Shown here: positions 19,751-32,550 of the stretch, piece by piece | Layout of the letters: each line of letters begins with the position of its first letter | How positions within the stretch are numbered: the first letter of the stretch is position 1 | Source of the DNA: Oscillatoriales cyanobacterium M59_W2019_021 | GTDB lineage: Bacteria; Cyanobacteriota; Cyanobacteriia; Cyanobacteriales; Geitlerinemataceae | Direction: 5' to 3' | Assembly (NCBI GenBank): GCA_015295945.1 | Contig: DVED01000060.1 | Span: forward strand, 1 to 33,449 | Length of the DNA: 33,449 nt | Notes under the pieces: model-generated | What the model saw: only the letters and a program-made list of their open reading frames with translations | What the model was told of the DNA's origin: nothing | The model's database searches: none | Made by a program: the position numbers and the translations under genes

Positions 19751-20766
19751 TAGCGTTTCTCAGATGGATGAGGTATAGTGTGGTCGATACTTAAATGATG
19801 AGTAATGAAGGCTTATTTCGTTGATTTTCGGCAAAAAACAATAGATACATACTACAGCCAACCCATCTCACAAAGTCAACTAGCCAACAAATTTTCTGTG
19901 GCTCGTAGTTTTGTGCAAAAACTCTTAAAGCAACATCGTTTAACCGGAAATATTGCTCCGAAACATGGAGGGGGTGTCAAGCTGAAGTTATCCCCCAATC
20001 AACTGGCTTTGCTGGTCGAGTTGATTAAAATTAATAATGATGCGACTCTCGAAGAACTCTGCGATTTACTGGCTGCCCAAACTGGAGTGGTGGTGAGCCG
20101 AGCCACCATGAGACGAATGACGCAACGACTCAAGTTGACGGTCAAAAAAAACACTCTTCCCTCCAGAAAAAGAAACGGAAAGAGTCCAACTTCTCAGATA
20201 TGAATTTTGGCAGCAAGTTCGAGATTTAAATGTCGAAGACCTAGTTTTTATTGATGAAGCTGGCGTGAACTTAGCTATGGTGAGATTATTCGCTCGAGCG
20301 TTTCGGGGAAAAAGAGCTCGAGGTTCTAGACCGCAGAAGAGAGGTAAAAATATCTTAATGATAGGAGCTATATCACTCAAAGGAGTGATAGCCTCTGTTA
20401 ACTTAGTCGGCGGAACAGATGGAATTACTTTTAAAGCTTTTATTCTCCAAAAACTAGTTCCTAAGTTGTGGAATGGGGCTTGTGTTTTTCTGGATAACTA
20501 CAGCATTCATAAAGGAGAAGAAGTGAAAAAAATGATTGAATCTGTCGGGGCGAAAGTCATTGATCTACCTCCCTATTCTCCAGATTTTTCTCCCATTGAA
20601 AATTTCTGGTCTAAGGTGAAGTCTACTCTTCGTTCTCTCGGTGCTAGAACTTATCACGCATTAGATAAGCGCGATCGCACAGGCTTTTAACCAAGTGTCC
20701 GCTGACGACATCCATCACTGGTTTACCCACTGCTGCTACTGTACCTCACCCATTTGAGAAACGCTA
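19751..20766 (+). mobile_element. IS630-family insertion sequence (1016 bp) with terminal inverted repeats and TA duplication
   Basis: The terminal inverted repeats span 19751-19779 and 20738-20766. They begin TAGCGTTTCTCA and match at 26 of 29 positions. TA dinucleotides flank both ends (19749-19750 and 20767-20768), as expected for IS630/Tc1-type insertion at TA. The transposase stop codon lies inside the right repeat. Because the transposase frame is broken twice, the copy is probably not autonomous. Confidence 0.9.
19805..20757 (+). pseudogene. IS630-type transposase, disrupted by two frame changes
   Basis: The N-terminal part (19805-20203) carries a helix-turn-helix region (QLANKFSVARSFVQKLLKQH). 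The catalytic part continues in a second frame from the A-run at 20144-20151 and holds the DDE triad: FIDEAGVN, FLDNYSIHKG and SPDFSPIENFW. The true C-terminus, AIAQAFNQVSADDIHHWF and a short tail, lies in a third frame from 20671 to the TGA at 20755-20757. The first change is at an A8 run and needs +1 (or -2). It could be a programmed frameshift or a one-base insertion. The second is a single extra C just before the GCGATCGC octamer at 20671-20678, which truncates the catalytic frame at 20690. I judge the gene inactive unless both shifts are suppressed. Confidence 0.85.
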
Positions 20767-22824: not shown

Positions 22825-23622
22825 ATGAAATCCATCGGCATCTCGAGTATTGTTTTAGCTTCCTTGGTCGTTGGGGCGATCGCGCGTTCCGTTCCCGTGC
22901 GGGCAACGGAGGCAGAATCCGCACCCCACGTCGCCCAACTGCGCGTTCCTCAATTCAGCGACCAACGGGCGATTACCGTGTTTGTCAAAGGCATGGCGAG
23001 TGCACCCGTCGATCGCGTCCAGGTTCAATTACTCTTCGGTATAGAAACGAGGTACGGACCGAATGGGGAAATGCTGGATACGGACTTCGATACCAATGCG
23101 TTCCGCCAGGTGTTGACTCAGAAACTGGGCGTCATCGGAATTCCGGCAACCAACATCGACGTGATTTCCAACCTCTTCGGTGCTTATTATGGCGGTGGCG
23201 GCGCGCAAGCGATCTTTGAGTTGTCTCGACCTAGTAGGGAGTTGATGTCTCAGATCCTCGAAGTTGCCAACGAAACCGCTAGAGATGTTGAAAATTTGAC
23301 GTTTCAAACGTTGAATATGCGGTTGGGTGCGAATTGCGACTCGCTGGAAAATCTGGCGCGTGCCGATGCCATGAGTCGGGCTCAGCAAAAAGCAGAGGCG
23401 ATCGCCGCTTCGATGGGGGTTCAACTCGGCGAAATCCTGTTCTTTTTCGATGCGTCGTCGGATACGCAACCTTACAGTTCTGTGTGCGTCTCTCCCGGCG
23501 ATCCGGAGTTTCCGGCGATCGGTCCCGATGGCTTCTATGCTTCGTGGTCGGTCTACGATCCCACTTTGCCCTTGGAAGTGCAAGTTAACAACAATATCGC
23601 CGTGACGTATGCGATTCGTTAA
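22825..23622 (+). CDS. Secreted SIMPL-domain (DUF541) protein, tandem copy 1
   Basis: A 265-residue protein with a signal peptide (MKSIGISSIVLASLVVGAIA, cleavage probably near ATEA, about residue 28). It is followed by a SIMPL/DUF541 domain: the ITVFVKGMASAPVDRVQVQL strand near the start, a central FDTNAFRQVLTQKLGVIGI helix, then ARADAMSRAQQKAEAIAASM, the family's conserved helix, and a C-terminal strand VQVNNNIAVTYAIR. Members are periplasmic or surface proteins with an ill-defined role in stress; the function here is unknown. Two cysteines in the mature part (C171 and C222) could form a disulfide. The paralogue at 23728 lies about 100 bp downstream. Confidence 0.83.
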   Translation: MKSIGISSIVLASLVVGAIARSVPVRATEAESAPHVAQLRVPQFSDQRAITVFVKGMASAPVDRVQVQLLFGIETRYGPNGEMLDTDFDTNAFRQVLTQKLGVIGIPATNIDVISNLFGAYYGGGGAQAIFELSRPSRELMSQILEVANETARDVENLTFQTLNMRLGANCDSLENLARADAMSRAQQKAEAIAASMGVQLGEILFFFDASSDTQPYSSVCVSPGDPEFPAIGPDGFYASWSVYDPTLPLEVQVNNNIAVTYAIR

Positions 23623-23627
23623 TTGTT

Positions 23628-23705
23628 GTTTTGGGGTTTGGGGTTTGTTAGTGGTCATTCAGTATTGGCGACTAACATAACCACTAACCACTAACCACTA
23701 ACTAT
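23628..23705. repeat. Heptamer repeats between the two SIMPL genes
   Basis: TTTGGGG-type units (about 23630-23645) are followed by TTAGTGG and ACTAACC-type units (about 23646-23702). The gap contains little else. A promoter for the second gene cannot be recognised. Confidence 0.8.
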
Positions 23706-23727
23706 CATTTATGGAGAATTTTTGGAG

Positions 23728-24486
23728 ATGAAACGATCGAGTTGGCTTTTTGGGGCGATCGCCTCGACTGGAATCGTCCTGGGTTGGGGCGTTGGCGCAC
23801 CCGTTCGCGCGGGGATGGCGGCATCGGACGATCACCAGATTTCCCAAATTTTCATGGGCGAACAGCCGATGATGACCACCTACGGACGCGGCACGGCGAC
23901 AGCGCCTGCGGATACGGCAGAAATTCAGTTGTATTTCAACAACACCGACCCCTACGCACCGTATCCTGTCGATGCCAACGCACCGATGCCGCAACCAAAA
24001 CCTATTACTACGGGGGACTTACAGCCGATCGTCGATGCCCTTGTCACCGCAGGGGTCGCAGCGAGCGATATCGAGTTAGAAACGGATGTGTCCGTACCAC
24101 CGTATTATCTATCCGTTGGGTCGGCAGTGGTGATCGTCAAATTGAGTCAACCGAGTCAATCTCTGCTCGATCGCGTCAAAACCTCAGCCAGTAACGCCGC
24201 CAGCACCGCCGGATTGTACTACAATTACGCCAACGATACCTGTACGGTATCCGATATCAAAGCCTTAGAAGCCGAAGCGCGGCGTTTGGCGATCGACGAT
24301 GCCCGATCGCGCATTCAAGCCATGGCAACGGCTGTAGGCGCGCGCACGACGCAAATTCTCAACATGGCGGAGTTTCCCAGTTTCAGCCCATTTTCCACAT
24401 CTTGTACTGCCTCTCCCGGCAGTGCGGGCGATCGTCCGGAAGTGTCGATCGAACTAGGCGTGTTGATGACCTACGGGGTTCAATAG
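23728..24486 (+). CDS. Secreted SIMPL-domain (DUF541) protein, tandem copy 2
   Basis: A 252-residue paralogue of the preceding gene. A signal peptide (about residues 1-28, hydrophobic core WLFGAIASTGIVLGWGVGA) precedes the SIMPL domain. The domain shows GRGTATAPADTAEIQLYF at its N-terminal strand, a central DLQPIVDALVTAGVAASDIE helix, the conserved EAEARRLAIDDARSRIQAMA helix and a terminal strand ending in LMTYGVQ. Compared with copy 1 it has a proline-rich insert (YAPYPVDANAPMPQPKP) in the first half. Two cysteines (about C172 and C227) match those of copy 1 and suggest a conserved disulfide. I chose ATG at 23728; a TTG two codons upstream is also open. A GGAG lies 12 bp upstream. Confidence 0.83.
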   Translation: MKRSSWLFGAIASTGIVLGWGVGAPVRAGMAASDDHQISQIFMGEQPMMTTYGRGTATAPADTAEIQLYFNNTDPYAPYPVDANAPMPQPKPITTGDLQPIVDALVTAGVAASDIELETDVSVPPYYLSVGSAVVIVKLSQPSQSLLDRVKTSASNAASTAGLYYNYANDTCTVSDIKALEAEARRLAIDDARSRIQAMATAVGARTTQILNMAEFPSFSPFSTSCTASPGSAGDRPEVSIELGVLMTYGVQ

Positions 24487-30043: not shown

Positions 30044-30160
30044 ACCAAAGTTAACAAAATTCCCCAGGCAAAACGGGTCTAGAAAAGCGATACTGGAGAT
30101 CCGAGATTGTCTAGAAAGCAGCAACTCCTGTACGGATGCACGATTTTCATCGAGAAATTT

Positions 30161-31123
30161 ATGAGTGAAATGACACGGGGAAAACGCAAACACACCGCCA
30201 CATTGGAAGTTCAGCTATTGCGTGAAGGGATTGTCGAATCGAGCCACCACGTCCGAGCCGTCGTCAGCGATCACCGAGGTCGCGTGCTGTCGATGGCGGG
30301 GAACGGGACAGAAAATACATTTATTCGATCGGCACTCAAGCCGTTTCAGGCATTGGCGGTAACCACCACGGGAACCTTAGAACGCTACAATCTCAACGAT
30401 CGCGATTTAGCTATTATCTGTAGTTCCCATCAAGGGACGATCAAACAAGCACGACAGGTTTTCAGTATTTTATGGCACTGCGAAGTCGATCCCTCGCAAT
30501 TACAATGTCCCATTCCCCCCGGCAAGCAATCCCCCCTAGAACACAACTGCTCCGGCAAACACGCCGGAATGCTGGCGGTTTGCCAACAGCGCAATTGGCC
30601 CCTGGAGAGTTACTTACAGCGCAACCATCCCGTCCAAACCCTGATTTTGAGCAAAGTTGCCGAACTGCTGGGAATGCCGGCTGCCGAGTTTATCGGCGCT
30701 CGCGACGACTGCGGTGCTCCCACGTATTTAATGGAGCTCGACCAGATTGCTTATCTATACGCGCAACTGGCATCGGGGAGTAGCGTGGATATGGAGCGCA
30801 TCGTACGGGCCATGACCCATCATCCGAATATGGTGGCGGGAGAGGGACATTTCGACACGGAATTGATGCGCTTGACGGAAGGGGAATTGGTCAGCAAGGC
30901 GGGATCGGAAGGGATTCAATGTATCGGTCGCGTTGGCGAAGGCATGGGGTTGGCGATCAAAGTCGGCGACGGCGCCAAACGCGCCAAACGCGCGGCAGCC
31001 ATTCACCTGCTGCGGCAAATGGGGTGGATCTCCCCGGAAATCGCCGAAACCTTGGCGGAAACCTATATGAGCTTGGGGAGTTTCAAACGCTTGGAAGTGG
31101 TGGGAGAACTGACGATGTTATAA
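30161..31123 (+). CDS. L-asparaginase II family protein (pfam06089 type)
   Basis: A protein of about 320 residues from the bacterial/plant-pathogen type asparaginase II family, which hydrolyses asparagine to aspartate and ammonia. It is unrelated to the E. coli AnsA/AnsB fold. The family blocks are VVSDHRGRVLSMAGN, FIRSALKPFQALAV, IICSSHQGT, HNCSGKHAGMLAVC, RDDCGAPTYLM, HPNMVAGEGHFDTELMRLT, SKAGSEGIQCIG and GMGLAIKVGDG. I take ATG at 30161 as the start. An in-frame TTG at 30107 would add 18 residues without family similarity, and ATG at 30170 is also possible. It lies just upstream of the initiator tRNA gene. Confidence 0.9.
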   Translation: MSEMTRGKRKHTATLEVQLLREGIVESSHHVRAVVSDHRGRVLSMAGNGTENTFIRSALKPFQALAVTTTGTLERYNLNDRDLAIICSSHQGTIKQARQVFSILWHCEVDPSQLQCPIPPGKQSPLEHNCSGKHAGMLAVCQQRNWPLESYLQRNHPVQTLILSKVAELLGMPAAEFIGARDDCGAPTYLMELDQIAYLYAQLASGSSVDMERIVRAMTHHPNMVAGEGHFDTELMRLTEGELVSKAGSEGIQCIGRVGEGMGLAIKVGDGAKRAKRAAAIHLLRQMGWISPEIAETLAETYMSLGSFKRLEVVGELTML

Positions 31124-31180: not shown

Positions 31181-31519
31181 CGCGGGATAGAGCAGCCTGG
31201 TAGCTCGTCGGGCTCAATCCGCAGAATCTGTATGAGTACAGAGCTCAAAAAAGACAGATCTGCAAGGGGCTGCGTATAAGGAAACTTATGCGTGATAACT
31301 TCTCAAATTCGGGGAAGCCTGTAAGATGGTAATCCCGAGCCAAGCTTCGGAAGAGCTAAAGCCGAAGAAGGTGTAGAGACTTGATGGGAAGCATCCTAAC
31401 AGTAAGGCTGAGGATGAAGGGAAAGTCCAGACCACAAACTGATAAAATTCAGGCAGCGAAAGCTGTAGATGGTAAGCATAACCCGAAGGTCGGTGGTTCA
31501 AATCCGCCTCCCGCCACCA
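31181..31519 (+). tRNA. Initiator tRNA-fMet (CAU), interrupted by a group I intron
   Basis: The 5' exon is 31181-31214 and the 3' exon 31477-31519. Joined, they form a complete cloverleaf: acceptor stem GCGGGA/TCCCGC, D-arm AGCAGCCTGGTAGCT, anticodon loop CTCATAA and T-arm GGTTCAAATCC. Initiator features are three G-C pairs in the anticodon stem (GGG/CCC) and an unpaired first base (C1 opposite C72). The CCA end is encoded (31517-31519). The intron sits between U33 and C34, directly before the CAU anticodon. Confidence 0.95.
31215..31476 (+). ncRNA. Group I intron in tRNA-fMet (IC3-like, no ORF)
   Basis: This 262-nt intron follows a U at the 5' splice site and ends in G before the anticodon, as group I introns do. 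The interior shows recognisable core parts: AATTCGGGGAAGCC ... ATGGTAATCCCGAGCC for P4-P6, GACTTGATGGGAAGC, and AAGGGAAAGTCCAGACCAC for the P7/P3 side. It has no homing endonuclease. Group I introns in cyanobacterial tRNA-fMet genes are known, so this is a member of an established class. Confidence 0.9.
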
Positions 31520-31529
31520 AATTTCAAGA

Positions 31530-31559
31530 AGCTCGGTTAGTTTGCTAACCGAGCTTTTT
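31530..31559 (+). terminator. Rho-independent terminator of tRNA-fMet
   Basis: A perfect 11-bp stem AGCTCGGTTAG/CTAACCGAGCT with a TTTG loop is followed by TTTT. It starts 11 bp after the tRNA CCA end. On the other strand it would end the pgeF transcript only weakly, since the complementary side has few T residues. Confidence 0.9.
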
Positions 31560-31589: not shown

Positions 31590-32363
31590 CTAACCACTCA
31601 CAATCCCCGACCATTGAACGTTTTTCTGTCCGGTGCGGCGGTAGGAGAAGAAATTGTCCGGATCTTGGTAGGTGCAGTATGGGGCGATCGCGATTTGTTG
31701 GGCACTCAAACCCAACCGATCGAGTTGTAAGGCAATGCAGGCGCGGATATCCAAGCGCACCCGATCGGGTTCTTCATCCCGCTGGAGGGGGCTGTTGGGT
31801 AAGGCTTCCAAGCGATCGAGGCAAGTTTGGGCGTCGTCTTCTGCCTCGAGAATCGTCGCACCGACGCGAACGGCAACCTCCGACGACACTTGATACACTT
31901 CACCCGCGATCGCCGGACCCAATGCCACCCGCAAATCCCCGATTTGACTGCCTTGCGCCTGCAATTGGGCGATCGCCTGGGGGACGATTTTCGCCGCCGT
32001 TCCCCGCCAACCGGAATGTACCGCCGCCACGTGTCCCGTGCGATCGTCGGCAATCAACACCGGGGTACAATCCGCCGAACACACCCACACCGCCTGCTGG
32101 GATTGTCGCGCCAGCAAACCGTCGGCGGGGTGATACTCGGAAACTGATGGCGATAACGGGGCGATCGACTCGGTATCGACGATCGCATTGCCGTGAACTT
32201 GTTGCGTGCGGTACACTTCCGCTTGCGGGTGCAACGCCTCTACCAGCGCCAAAGGCGAATTGGGCGAAAATTGCTGGGTAAAAAAGCCGTGTTGCCACGG
32301 TGCGAAGAGAGAGCAAGTTAAATAGGGTTTGCCTTGCCAAGTTTGCCAGTGCCAAGCGTGCAT
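31590..32363 (-). CDS. pgeF: Peptidoglycan editing factor PgeF (YfiH/laccase-domain family)
   Basis: A protein of about 257 residues with the multicopper polyphenol oxidase/laccase fold. YfiH/PgeF proteins remove wrongly incorporated L-Ser from muropeptide precursors; purine nucleoside phosphorylase activity is also reported for relatives. The metal-site motifs are present: QVHGNAIV (first His), the SADCTPVL block with the conserved Cys, AAVHSGWRGTAAKIV with the second His, and GPAIAGEVYQV. I choose ATG at 32363 (MHAWHWQTW...), where family similarity begins. An in-frame ATG at 32480 would add 39 residues with no recognisable similarity. Neither has a good Shine-Dalgarno sequence. Confidence 0.88.
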   Translation of the reverse strand: MHAWHWQTWQGKPYLTCSLFAPWQHGFFTQQFSPNSPLALVEALHPQAEVYRTQQVHGNAIVDTESIAPLSPSVSEYHPADGLLARQSQQAVWVCSADCTPVLIADDRTGHVAAVHSGWRGTAAKIVPQAIAQLQAQGSQIGDLRVALGPAIAGEVYQVSSEVAVRVGATILEAEDDAQTCLDRLEALPNSPLQRDEEPDRVRLDIRACIALQLDRLGLSAQQIAIAPYCTYQDPDNFFSYRRTGQKNVQWSGIVSG

Positions 32364-32550
32364 TATGGGGCGATCGTCTGTAGGAAAACATTCCTCATGG
32401 TAGCGCAAAGCTTGGTTTTGGGACGATTCGATCGGCGTTCTCCTCGAAGTTGGAACAAATAACGACCGATCGAGGGTCATTATTTATTTGGGGTGGGTTA
32501 TGTGTTATCGGTTATTGGTCGCCGATCGTTGGTCGCCGAACACTGGTAGG

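Follow-up and report, generated by a model that had tools for sequence, protein, structure and literature searches.

Directly before its anticodon, the initiator tRNA (tRNA-fMet) gene of Oscillatoriales cyanobacterium M59_W2019_021 is interrupted by an intron. We asked what this intron is, whether the genome has any other initiator tRNA, and how the intron came to lie there. The DNA that was analyzed, called the window here, is the whole 33,449-nt stretch of contig DVED01000060.1, and G, C, and L numbers are our own labels for genomes, contigs, and loci. We hold it to be very probable that the intron is a ribozyme in the sole initiator tRNA gene found, that it arrived laterally as a mobile intron, and that its endonuclease gene was then lost by one deletion. 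The intron class itself is known; what is new is the remnant of the endonuclease gene, the layouts in which that gene occurs in relatives, and the spread of the intron outside cyanobacteria.

A sequence-only reading of the window had proposed that the two exons form a complete initiator tRNA and that a 262-nt intron begins after U33 and ends in G. The coordinates, the length, and the U33|C34 junction all hold (Table 1). Joined, the exons were called by ARAGORN as a 77-nt tRNA-Met(CAT), that is, with a CAU anticodon, with encoded CCA. Its C1 and A72 do not pair, and its anticodon stem has three G-C pairs; both features are marks of an initiator tRNA. The same program called no tRNA on the whole unspliced window. 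CA is present at both intron junctions, and DNA alone thus leaves a 2-nt ambiguity. Among the 109 loci read at both ends, with up to two errors allowed in the 5' exon search motif, the 5' exon ended in GCT in every one, the window included, and the first intron base was T in two (L088 and L119). A junction one base later is disfavored, because these T-starting introns would then spoil the CAT anticodon; boundaries shifted 1 to 2 bases later were rejected in view of introns starting with T or CG. The terminal intron G was found in all 32 loci fetched by BLAST and was forced by the search pattern in the remaining 79. The whole tRNA precursor folded more stably than 100 of 100 shuffles (z -3.9). 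Promoter and terminator scans flagged nothing, and the consensus terminator scan did not flag the inverted repeat 3' of the tRNA.

Table 1. Features of the interrupted tRNA-fMet gene and its neighbors in the window
Feature	Position	Strand	Basis
L-asparaginase II (PF06089), tRNA neighbor	30107-31123		Pfam match
5' exon of tRNA-fMet (C1 to U33)	31181..31214	+	Joined exons called tRNA-Met(CAT) by ARAGORN
Group I intron, 262 nt, terminal G as last base	31215..31476	+	RF00028 match; junction comparison
Hairpin within the P1 loop, from the two flanks of the putative former endonuclease gene	31221..31263	+	-15 kcal/mol, z -4.4
Putative endonuclease-gene remnant, ATG plus 7 codons, MSTELKKD, in the P1 loop	31232..31255	+	Offset of 17 nt in the intron
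Approximate junction of the proposed ~385-nt internal deletion	31256..31257	+	Alignment with the L076 intron; four other endonuclease-bearing introns less clean
Probable remnant, 3' part of the L1/endonuclease region	31257..31266	+	Alignment with L076; weak alone
Guide GGGC	31267..31270	+	Invariant in 44/44; pairing with exon G31-C32-U33 (U33.G) as P1 inferred
P2 hairpin, GAAA loop	31272..31293	+	9/9 pairs changed on both sides
P3 5' strand, partner 31386-31391	31299..31304	+	100% of cells paired; 5/6 pairs with double changes
P4-P5 (P4 31308-31313/31334-31339; P5 31317-31319/31328-31330)	31308..31339	+	Pair counts, 44 cores
P6 and P6a	31340..31371	+	P6 invariant; P6a 6/6 pairs doubly changed
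P7 5' strand, bulged base (G-binding site), partner 31424-31428	31376..31381	+	100% paired
P8	31392..31416	+	7/9 pairs with double changes; 91.8% of cells paired
P9 and P9.1 (GAAA loop)	31439..31465	+	4/4 and 3/4 pairs doubly changed
3' exon of tRNA-fMet (C34 to encoded CCA)	31477..31519	+	Joined exons called tRNA-Met(CAT) by ARAGORN
Perfect inverted repeat AGCTCGGTTAG, 4-nt loop, CTAACCGAGCT, then T; terminator-like	31530..31559	+	Directly 3' of the tRNA; read from sequence
Cu-oxidase_4/laccase-type protein (PF02578), tRNA neighbor	31590-32480		Pfam match

The group I core that the reading had noticed was recognized by a covariance model, the check on which that reading had staked its claim: Rfam RF00028 matched 31250-31453 with 56.4 bits (cut-off 50, E 6.4e-12). 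We then scored a hand-made group I model of 54 pairs, the P3/P7 pseudoknot included, on 44 of 111 cores chosen at <85% identity, the window's core among them. Overall, 95.9% of 2316 cells were paired, and 37 of the 54 pairs had changed on both sides. The covariation score was 0.447 versus 0.190 in shuffles, none of 500 shuffles being as high, and shifting the partner by one to three columns lowered pairing to 32-45%. P4, with five of six pairs invariant, and P6 hardly vary and thus give little covariation information; in P7 two of five pairs were doubly changed, each in a single sequence (L119). The 5' splice site would be held by a short P1 in which exon G31-C32-U33 pairs with the guide, with a U.G pair at the splice site; an example with three P1 pairs is the tRNA-Leu intron of Anabaena. 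By its core homology and its position between U33 and C34, the window's intron belongs to the tRNA-fMet lineage of the Synechocystis type. These data confirm it as a true member of a known group I class, for which self-splicing is predicted.

Two further places in the window drew our attention. A transposase at 19805-20690 is split over two ORFs, an HTH_32/33-like part below the Pfam cut-off and a DDE_3 part, presumably resembling an IS630-type element. Two adjoining ORFs of similar length and motifs at 22825-24486 are probably a duplicated periplasmic gene, which we take to be SIMPL-like by name.

The reading had seen only one initiator tRNA, and this now extends to the whole draft genome (4,985,496 bases, a 4.99-Mb draft in 212 contigs with a listed completeness of 99.99%). 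The search for an intron-less tRNA-fMet copy in this genome found none, and GGGCTCATAACCC was absent from it within one mismatch. Among 42 tRNA matches, the CAT anticodon occurred in two, neither of which had the initiator marks. The interrupted tRNA-fMet is the sole initiator tRNA gene found in the draft genome. The split gene might be dead and another initiator tRNA missing from the draft, a reading to which the 212 contigs lend something. We find it hardly credible in view of the listed completeness, the intact intron core, and the other carriers: an intron-less initiator arm within one mismatch was found in none of the 21 non-cyanobacterial intron-bearing assemblies, whose completeness is not given, nor in the intron-bearing genome G001, and three of three intron-less control genomes did match in the same search. 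A pseudogene reading of the split tRNA-fMet was likewise rejected in view of the intact ribozyme core.

The assembly gave two group I intron matches, in tRNA-fMet and in tRNA-Leu(UAA). The latter (G000:C92:45808-46012, about 1500-1790 of L001; the gene was identified by reading L001) also lies in an anticodon loop, in another gene and at another insertion site. Contig C1 of the same genome carries an intact tRNA-Leu(TAA) (L066), a tRNA-Tyr(GTA) (L073), and a non-initiator CAT tRNA (L074); this contig could be a phage or mobile element that brings its own tRNAs.

The intron had also been described as having no ORF. This is right for intact ORFs, and an intact I-Ssp6803I-like endonuclease gene is not present; it overlooks eight codons that appear to survive from such a gene. 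The closest endonuclease-bearing introns, those of G381 and G304, are 85% identical to the window's intron over about 250 nt, an identity that the G048 intron also has. The G381 core is identical to that of Snowella (L149), and the G304 core to that of Synechocystis salina (L166). Against the G381 intron (L076), the first 42 nt align ungapped, ~385 nt are missing, and the match resumes just before the guide. Alignment with five endonuclease-bearing introns gave clean two-block homology in L076, partly in L077, and scattered homology in L078, L034, and L093. The start codon lies 17 nt into the intron in G381 and Snowella, as in the window, and at 20-22 nt in the others.

Related endonucleases start with M or V, then S, N, or D, then TKLKGD. 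Scored against MSTKLKGD, a reference picked after the similarity had been noticed, the window's octapeptide ranked first of 96 short introns (score 28, median 5). The second was Aphanothece hegewaldii (L111; score 22), which reads MSTKLKE and then a stop, and none of 2000 shuffles reached the score of either. Of the 39 downstream free-standing copies that extend over residue D8, 38 keep it, which argues that the octapeptide stretch belongs to the gene and not to the ribozyme loop. We considered whether the likeness could be due to chance or driven by the ribozyme, in an intron that never held the gene. The loop does form a hairpin anyway, with 10 pairs between the former flanks and none of 200 shuffles as stable, and the DNA-level remnant score of the window, 27 against a median of 17 in other short introns, was reached by 5 of 1000 shuffles (for L111, by none of 1000). 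Against this stand six identities in eight residues, placed at the start-codon offset of G381, and the grouping of both top-ranked short introns with endonuclease-bearing ones, and we judge such an origin very unlikely. The comparisons instead suggest, for the first time, that the window's P1 loop keeps the first eight codons of an I-Ssp6803I-like endonuclease gene of which the rest was deleted; L111 appears to be a second, different remnant.

An intact endonuclease gene does not define this kind of intron but is needed for mobility in cis. No such gene was found in the window's own genome at E <= 0.1, and when the endonuclease was compared with the window by tblastn at permissive settings, every match was at chance level, with E >1. 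A strict pattern for sister copies of the window's deletion form found, among 291 relatives, the window itself alone. Across 11 endonuclease-bearing introns the signal for a closing stem of the P1 loop was suggestive but uneven, with 0 to 58 of 300 shuffles as stable. The intron-internal gene of L078 (G048) seems to be frameshifted around codon 24, which may mark the onset of decay.

The relatives' genes belong to one family. Both of the proteins scanned matched PF11645 (E 1.9e-54 and 2.5e-48), and the one searched against the PDB matched 2ost (E 1.2e-57), which we take to be I-Ssp6803I. All 42 downstream and all 14 internal rows have Q49 and K51, and D36 is present in all 41 downstream rows covering it; these three are presumably the active-site residues. 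By family match and active-site residues, the relatives' genes are PD-(D/E)XK homing endonuclease genes.

We found the gene in several positions relative to the interrupted tRNA. Among 111 loci, it lay inside the intron in 15, <=150 nt downstream in 40, further downstream (772-2083 nt) in 5, and upstream in 1; 48 had none, and 2 had flanks too short to judge. Here "none" means no match at E <= 1e-4 in the DNA read, often a 1.5-kb flank, and is an upper bound (G103 [L099] is counted there, yet has the gene about 1.6 kb downstream), and "downstream" includes fragments. L129 was omitted, with its 5' part off the contig; L155 and L180 have the 3' part alone, and L083 repeats L038. Without 7 presumed same-species duplicates, judged from identical cores, the counts are 12 internal, 38 near downstream, 5 far downstream, 1 upstream, 46 none, and 2 unclear. 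The 83 cyanobacterial loci among these comprise 37 near downstream, 5 far, 1 upstream, 5 inside, 33 none, and 2 unclear; the 21 non-cyanobacterial loci comprise 7 inside, 1 near downstream, and 13 none. A free-standing endonuclease gene thus accompanies the interrupted tRNA in 46 of 111 loci, and none of the 111 has both an internal and a free-standing gene. All 45 downstream copies are on the tRNA's strand, and 39 of them are covered end to end by one match. In 13 of 15 chosen pairs of downstream copies dN/dS was 0.05-0.33, the other 2 pairs not being computable.

A tree of the endonuclease proteins with 57 rows requires 5 changes of location; its supported branches demand three or more for "downstream" and two or more for "inside." By this tree, the gene has changed place more than once, from flank to intron or the reverse. 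An intron with a free-standing neighbor gene matches what we would call a collaborative homing layout, found mainly in cyanobacteria and, in this form, new here; the literature searched, mostly without subscription papers, gave no description of it for tRNA genes. Relatives of the window have such a neighbor, and the window does not.

The free-standing genes might instead have spread alone, by intronless homing, and do nothing for the intron. Such spread would fit the 48 of 111 introns with no endonuclease in the DNA read nearby, along with the 2 whose flanks were too short, and two loci discussed below: the gene fragment kept by the intron-less genome G160 and the homologue in the Saprospirales locus L209. 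It fits less well with the distribution in the class, where 19 of 388 genomes have the gene at E <= 1e-10: 18 of 28 intron-bearing genomes and 1 of the 360 others, that one being the G160 fragment. Other loci have a gene of the same family within the intron, and on the protein tree its site changed more than once. We regard independent spread as doubtful, though it retains a real chance.

Some loci of this family deserve separate mention. In G160 (L198, G160:C46:59500-60600), an intron-less tRNA-fMet is followed by an endonuclease-gene fragment of about 46 residues; this locus perhaps lost its intron after the enzyme died. Downstream of the intron-bearing tRNA in L094 there are two matches, one near full length (+51 nt) and one an N-terminal fragment (+633 nt). 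L209 (G821:C37:187923-188342, Saprospirales) is a stop-free homologue; the 3.4 kb read there showed no initiator tRNA junction. Relatives of the endonuclease were found neither in viral contigs nor in plasmids, and the 48 phage records that matched it were all <60% identical; by these searches, no vehicle was found.

The class of intron had been called known in cyanobacteria, which is correct and too narrow: five or more additional phylum-level groups carry the same intron at the same site. When genome_contigs (84,980 species) was scanned for the intron end followed by the 3' exon, 82 stretches matched, and 80 of these are listed as loci. Introns that have one base fewer ahead of their end escape the pattern, and the result is not a census. 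Of these 80 named loci, 21 are non-cyanobacterial records: Bacteroidota/Saprospirales, Rhodothermales (Rhodothermota), Desulfococcaceae or Deltaproteobacteria (Thermodesulfobacteriota), Parabeggiatoa (Gammaproteobacteria), Herpetosiphonaceae (Chloroflexota), and Uhrbacteria. For 20 of the 21, both exons were read and the site is the same; the Uhrbacteria locus (L155) is truncated where its contig stops. A match across almost the full query (E <= 4.2e-35) was obtained for 16 of the 114 genomes in the order to which one Rhodothermales genome belongs; at least 9 of the 16 were already among the loci analyzed, and junctions were read in 4. Among 298 genomes in the order of one Saprospirales genome, 5 have the endonuclease: inside the intron in 3, beside an intron-bearing tRNA in 1 (L208), and without a junction nearby in 1 (L209).

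Mis-binning was considered as a source of these cases. It was rejected in view of the exons, which differ from cyanobacterial exons, the lack of an intron-less copy within one mismatch in all 21 assemblies, and the recurrence of near full-length matches within the Rhodothermales order.

We next asked whether the intron is an old cyanobacterial inheritance or spread laterally. In the window's family it is present in 2 of 14 genomes, the window's own and G001 (in both copies), and the other 12 have directly adjoining exons, as checked by eye. Across the class, 28 of 388 genomes in 11 families have it, and other members of the same genera gave exon-level matches alone; the search used the 3' part of the gene, and an exon-level match is no proof of an intron-less gene. 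Another 16 of the 388 genomes gave no match at all.

In a tree of 46 cores, the window's intron falls in a supported set of seven (97/86) that includes those of G048, G304, and G381. The gene is inside the intron in four of them (L034, L076, L077, and L078), two carry the putative remnants (the window and L111), and L119 from Parabeggiatoa has none. A narrower set of five, without L034 and L119, has support of 76/86 in this tree and 84 in a 111-row tree. The G001 intron lies outside the set of seven, and a joint clade with the window's intron was not rejected (AU p 0.217). A single clade of cyanobacterial introns was rejected (46 cores, AU p 0.0083), a result that depends in part on two long-branched rows, L119 and L147, and on the poorly supported grouping (94/61) of Rhodothermales with two cyanobacterial families. 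A single clade of Bacteroidota plus Rhodothermota was also rejected (46 cores, AU p 0.00025), which may partly reflect their present ranking as separate phyla. The phylum labels in both core trees came from key words in the records, all others being counted as cyanobacteria; L130, L136, L153, and L183 are labeled Bacteroidota but were found in the Rhodothermales order.

Ancient vertical inheritance would place the intron in the cyanobacterial ancestor, with many losses and a later arrival of endonuclease genes. Over large stretches the core tree does follow host groups (Nostocales, Moorena/Symploca, and Laspinema), vertical inheritance within genera is common, and one shared gain in the window's family, followed by losses, may have taken place. 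Such a history would nevertheless have to accommodate the presence of the intron in so few class genomes, the two rejected clades, and a conserved endonuclease of one family that accompanies the intron in many genomes, and we think it unlikely. The patchy presence and the clade rejections favor lateral spread of the tRNA-fMet intron. That several phyla carry this intron at an identical position, in exons unlike the cyanobacterial ones and with no spare copy found, strengthens the case for transfer. For the window's own genome the case for lateral gain is moderate, and it is stronger for the family as a whole.

From these comparisons we infer splicing, mobility, and the order of events as follows. 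The intron would have arrived laterally as a mobile element carrying an I-Ssp6803I-like PD-(D/E)XK endonuclease gene in its P1 loop. One internal deletion would then have removed the gene and left a copy immobile in cis. The precursor tRNA is predicted to fold so that the U33 splice site pairs through the short P1 (G31-C32-U33 with GGC, 31268-31270). External guanosine, held in P7, would attack after U33; the freed U33 would then attack after the terminal G, and the joined exons would give a tRNA-fMet with a CAU anticodon. We propose that the intron persists because exact removal seldom happens and splicing can be tolerated.

A broader reading, on which we are evenly divided, is that the intron is the visible half of a two-part selfish system. 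Its endonuclease gene would have moved more than once between the flank and the P1 loop, the latter giving a self-contained mobile intron that is the commoner form in other phyla, and would have been deleted again in the window. The system would reach at least six phylum-level groups and sit in an essential gene with no intron-less copy found in the carriers checked. What makes the two-part reading less likely is that outside cyanobacteria the gene, where found, is mostly inside the intron.

The nearest known system is the tRNA-fMet intron of Synechocystis sp. PCC 6803 with I-Ssp6803I, reportedly described by Biniszkiewicz 1994 and by Bonocora and Shub 2001; Paquin 1997 is a further reference. 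The comparison for free-standing genes is the cyanophage psbA intron with F-CphI, for which Zeng 2009 reportedly described collaborative homing. The Synechocystis intron resembles the window's in gene, in the interruption of the anticodon loop, and in the endonuclease family of the putative remnant, and the Synechocystis-type introns of G048 and G304 have the close sequence identity noted above. It differs in length, at 655 nt versus 262 nt, the gene in the window being reduced to its eight start codons. The psbA/F-CphI system resembles the tRNA-fMet loci of the window's intron family in having an endonuclease gene near the interrupted gene. However, F-CphI is of the Endo VII type rather than PD-(D/E)XK, and psbA is a phage gene rather than a tRNA gene in cell chromosomes. 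In the tRNA-fMet system the same endonuclease gene is also inside the intron elsewhere, and the window has no such neighbor.

The sections available of the sources cited next set the background. For Synechocystis, they give a 655-nt intron and I-Ssp6803I as a 150-aa enzyme (PMC1995217). As excerpted, PMC8450103 names tRNA-fMet introns from Synechocystis PCC 6803 and Gloeobacter and, outside cyanobacteria, group I introns in tRNA-Ile2 of Acidovorax and Burkholderia. According to extracts, the intron is present in one of two Nostoc genomes (PMC5987646) and absent from Nodularia spumigena (PMC3610870), and large sulfur bacteria have group I introns in tRNA-Arg and tRNA-Leu (PMC4853749). No tRNA-fMet intron from outside cyanobacteria is mentioned in the accessible portion of a review (PMC3984707). 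PMC6083498, in its accessible text, presents the cyanophage psbA intron together with the free-standing F-CphI as a case of collaborative homing. Size variation of Porphyra rDNA group I introns is read, in the excerpt available, as loss of an endonuclease gene from a peripheral loop (PMC2585584), much as we propose for the window; the host gene is rDNA there and a bacterial tRNA gene here, and the enzyme here is PD-(D/E)XK.

This locus makes two questions testable. One is whether tRNA-fMet introns are old or spread laterally. The other is how a mobile intron is assembled and dissolved, for which the relatives supply stages within one gene family: an endonuclease gene close to the tRNA, one within the loop, a remnant of a few codons, and none at all. 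There is also a consequence for annotation. The authors of tRNAscan-SE 2.0 state, in the part of their paper available, that the program was not designed to detect such introns (PMC8450103). Genomes of this kind can thus appear to have no initiator tRNA at all, as happened with ARAGORN on the window.
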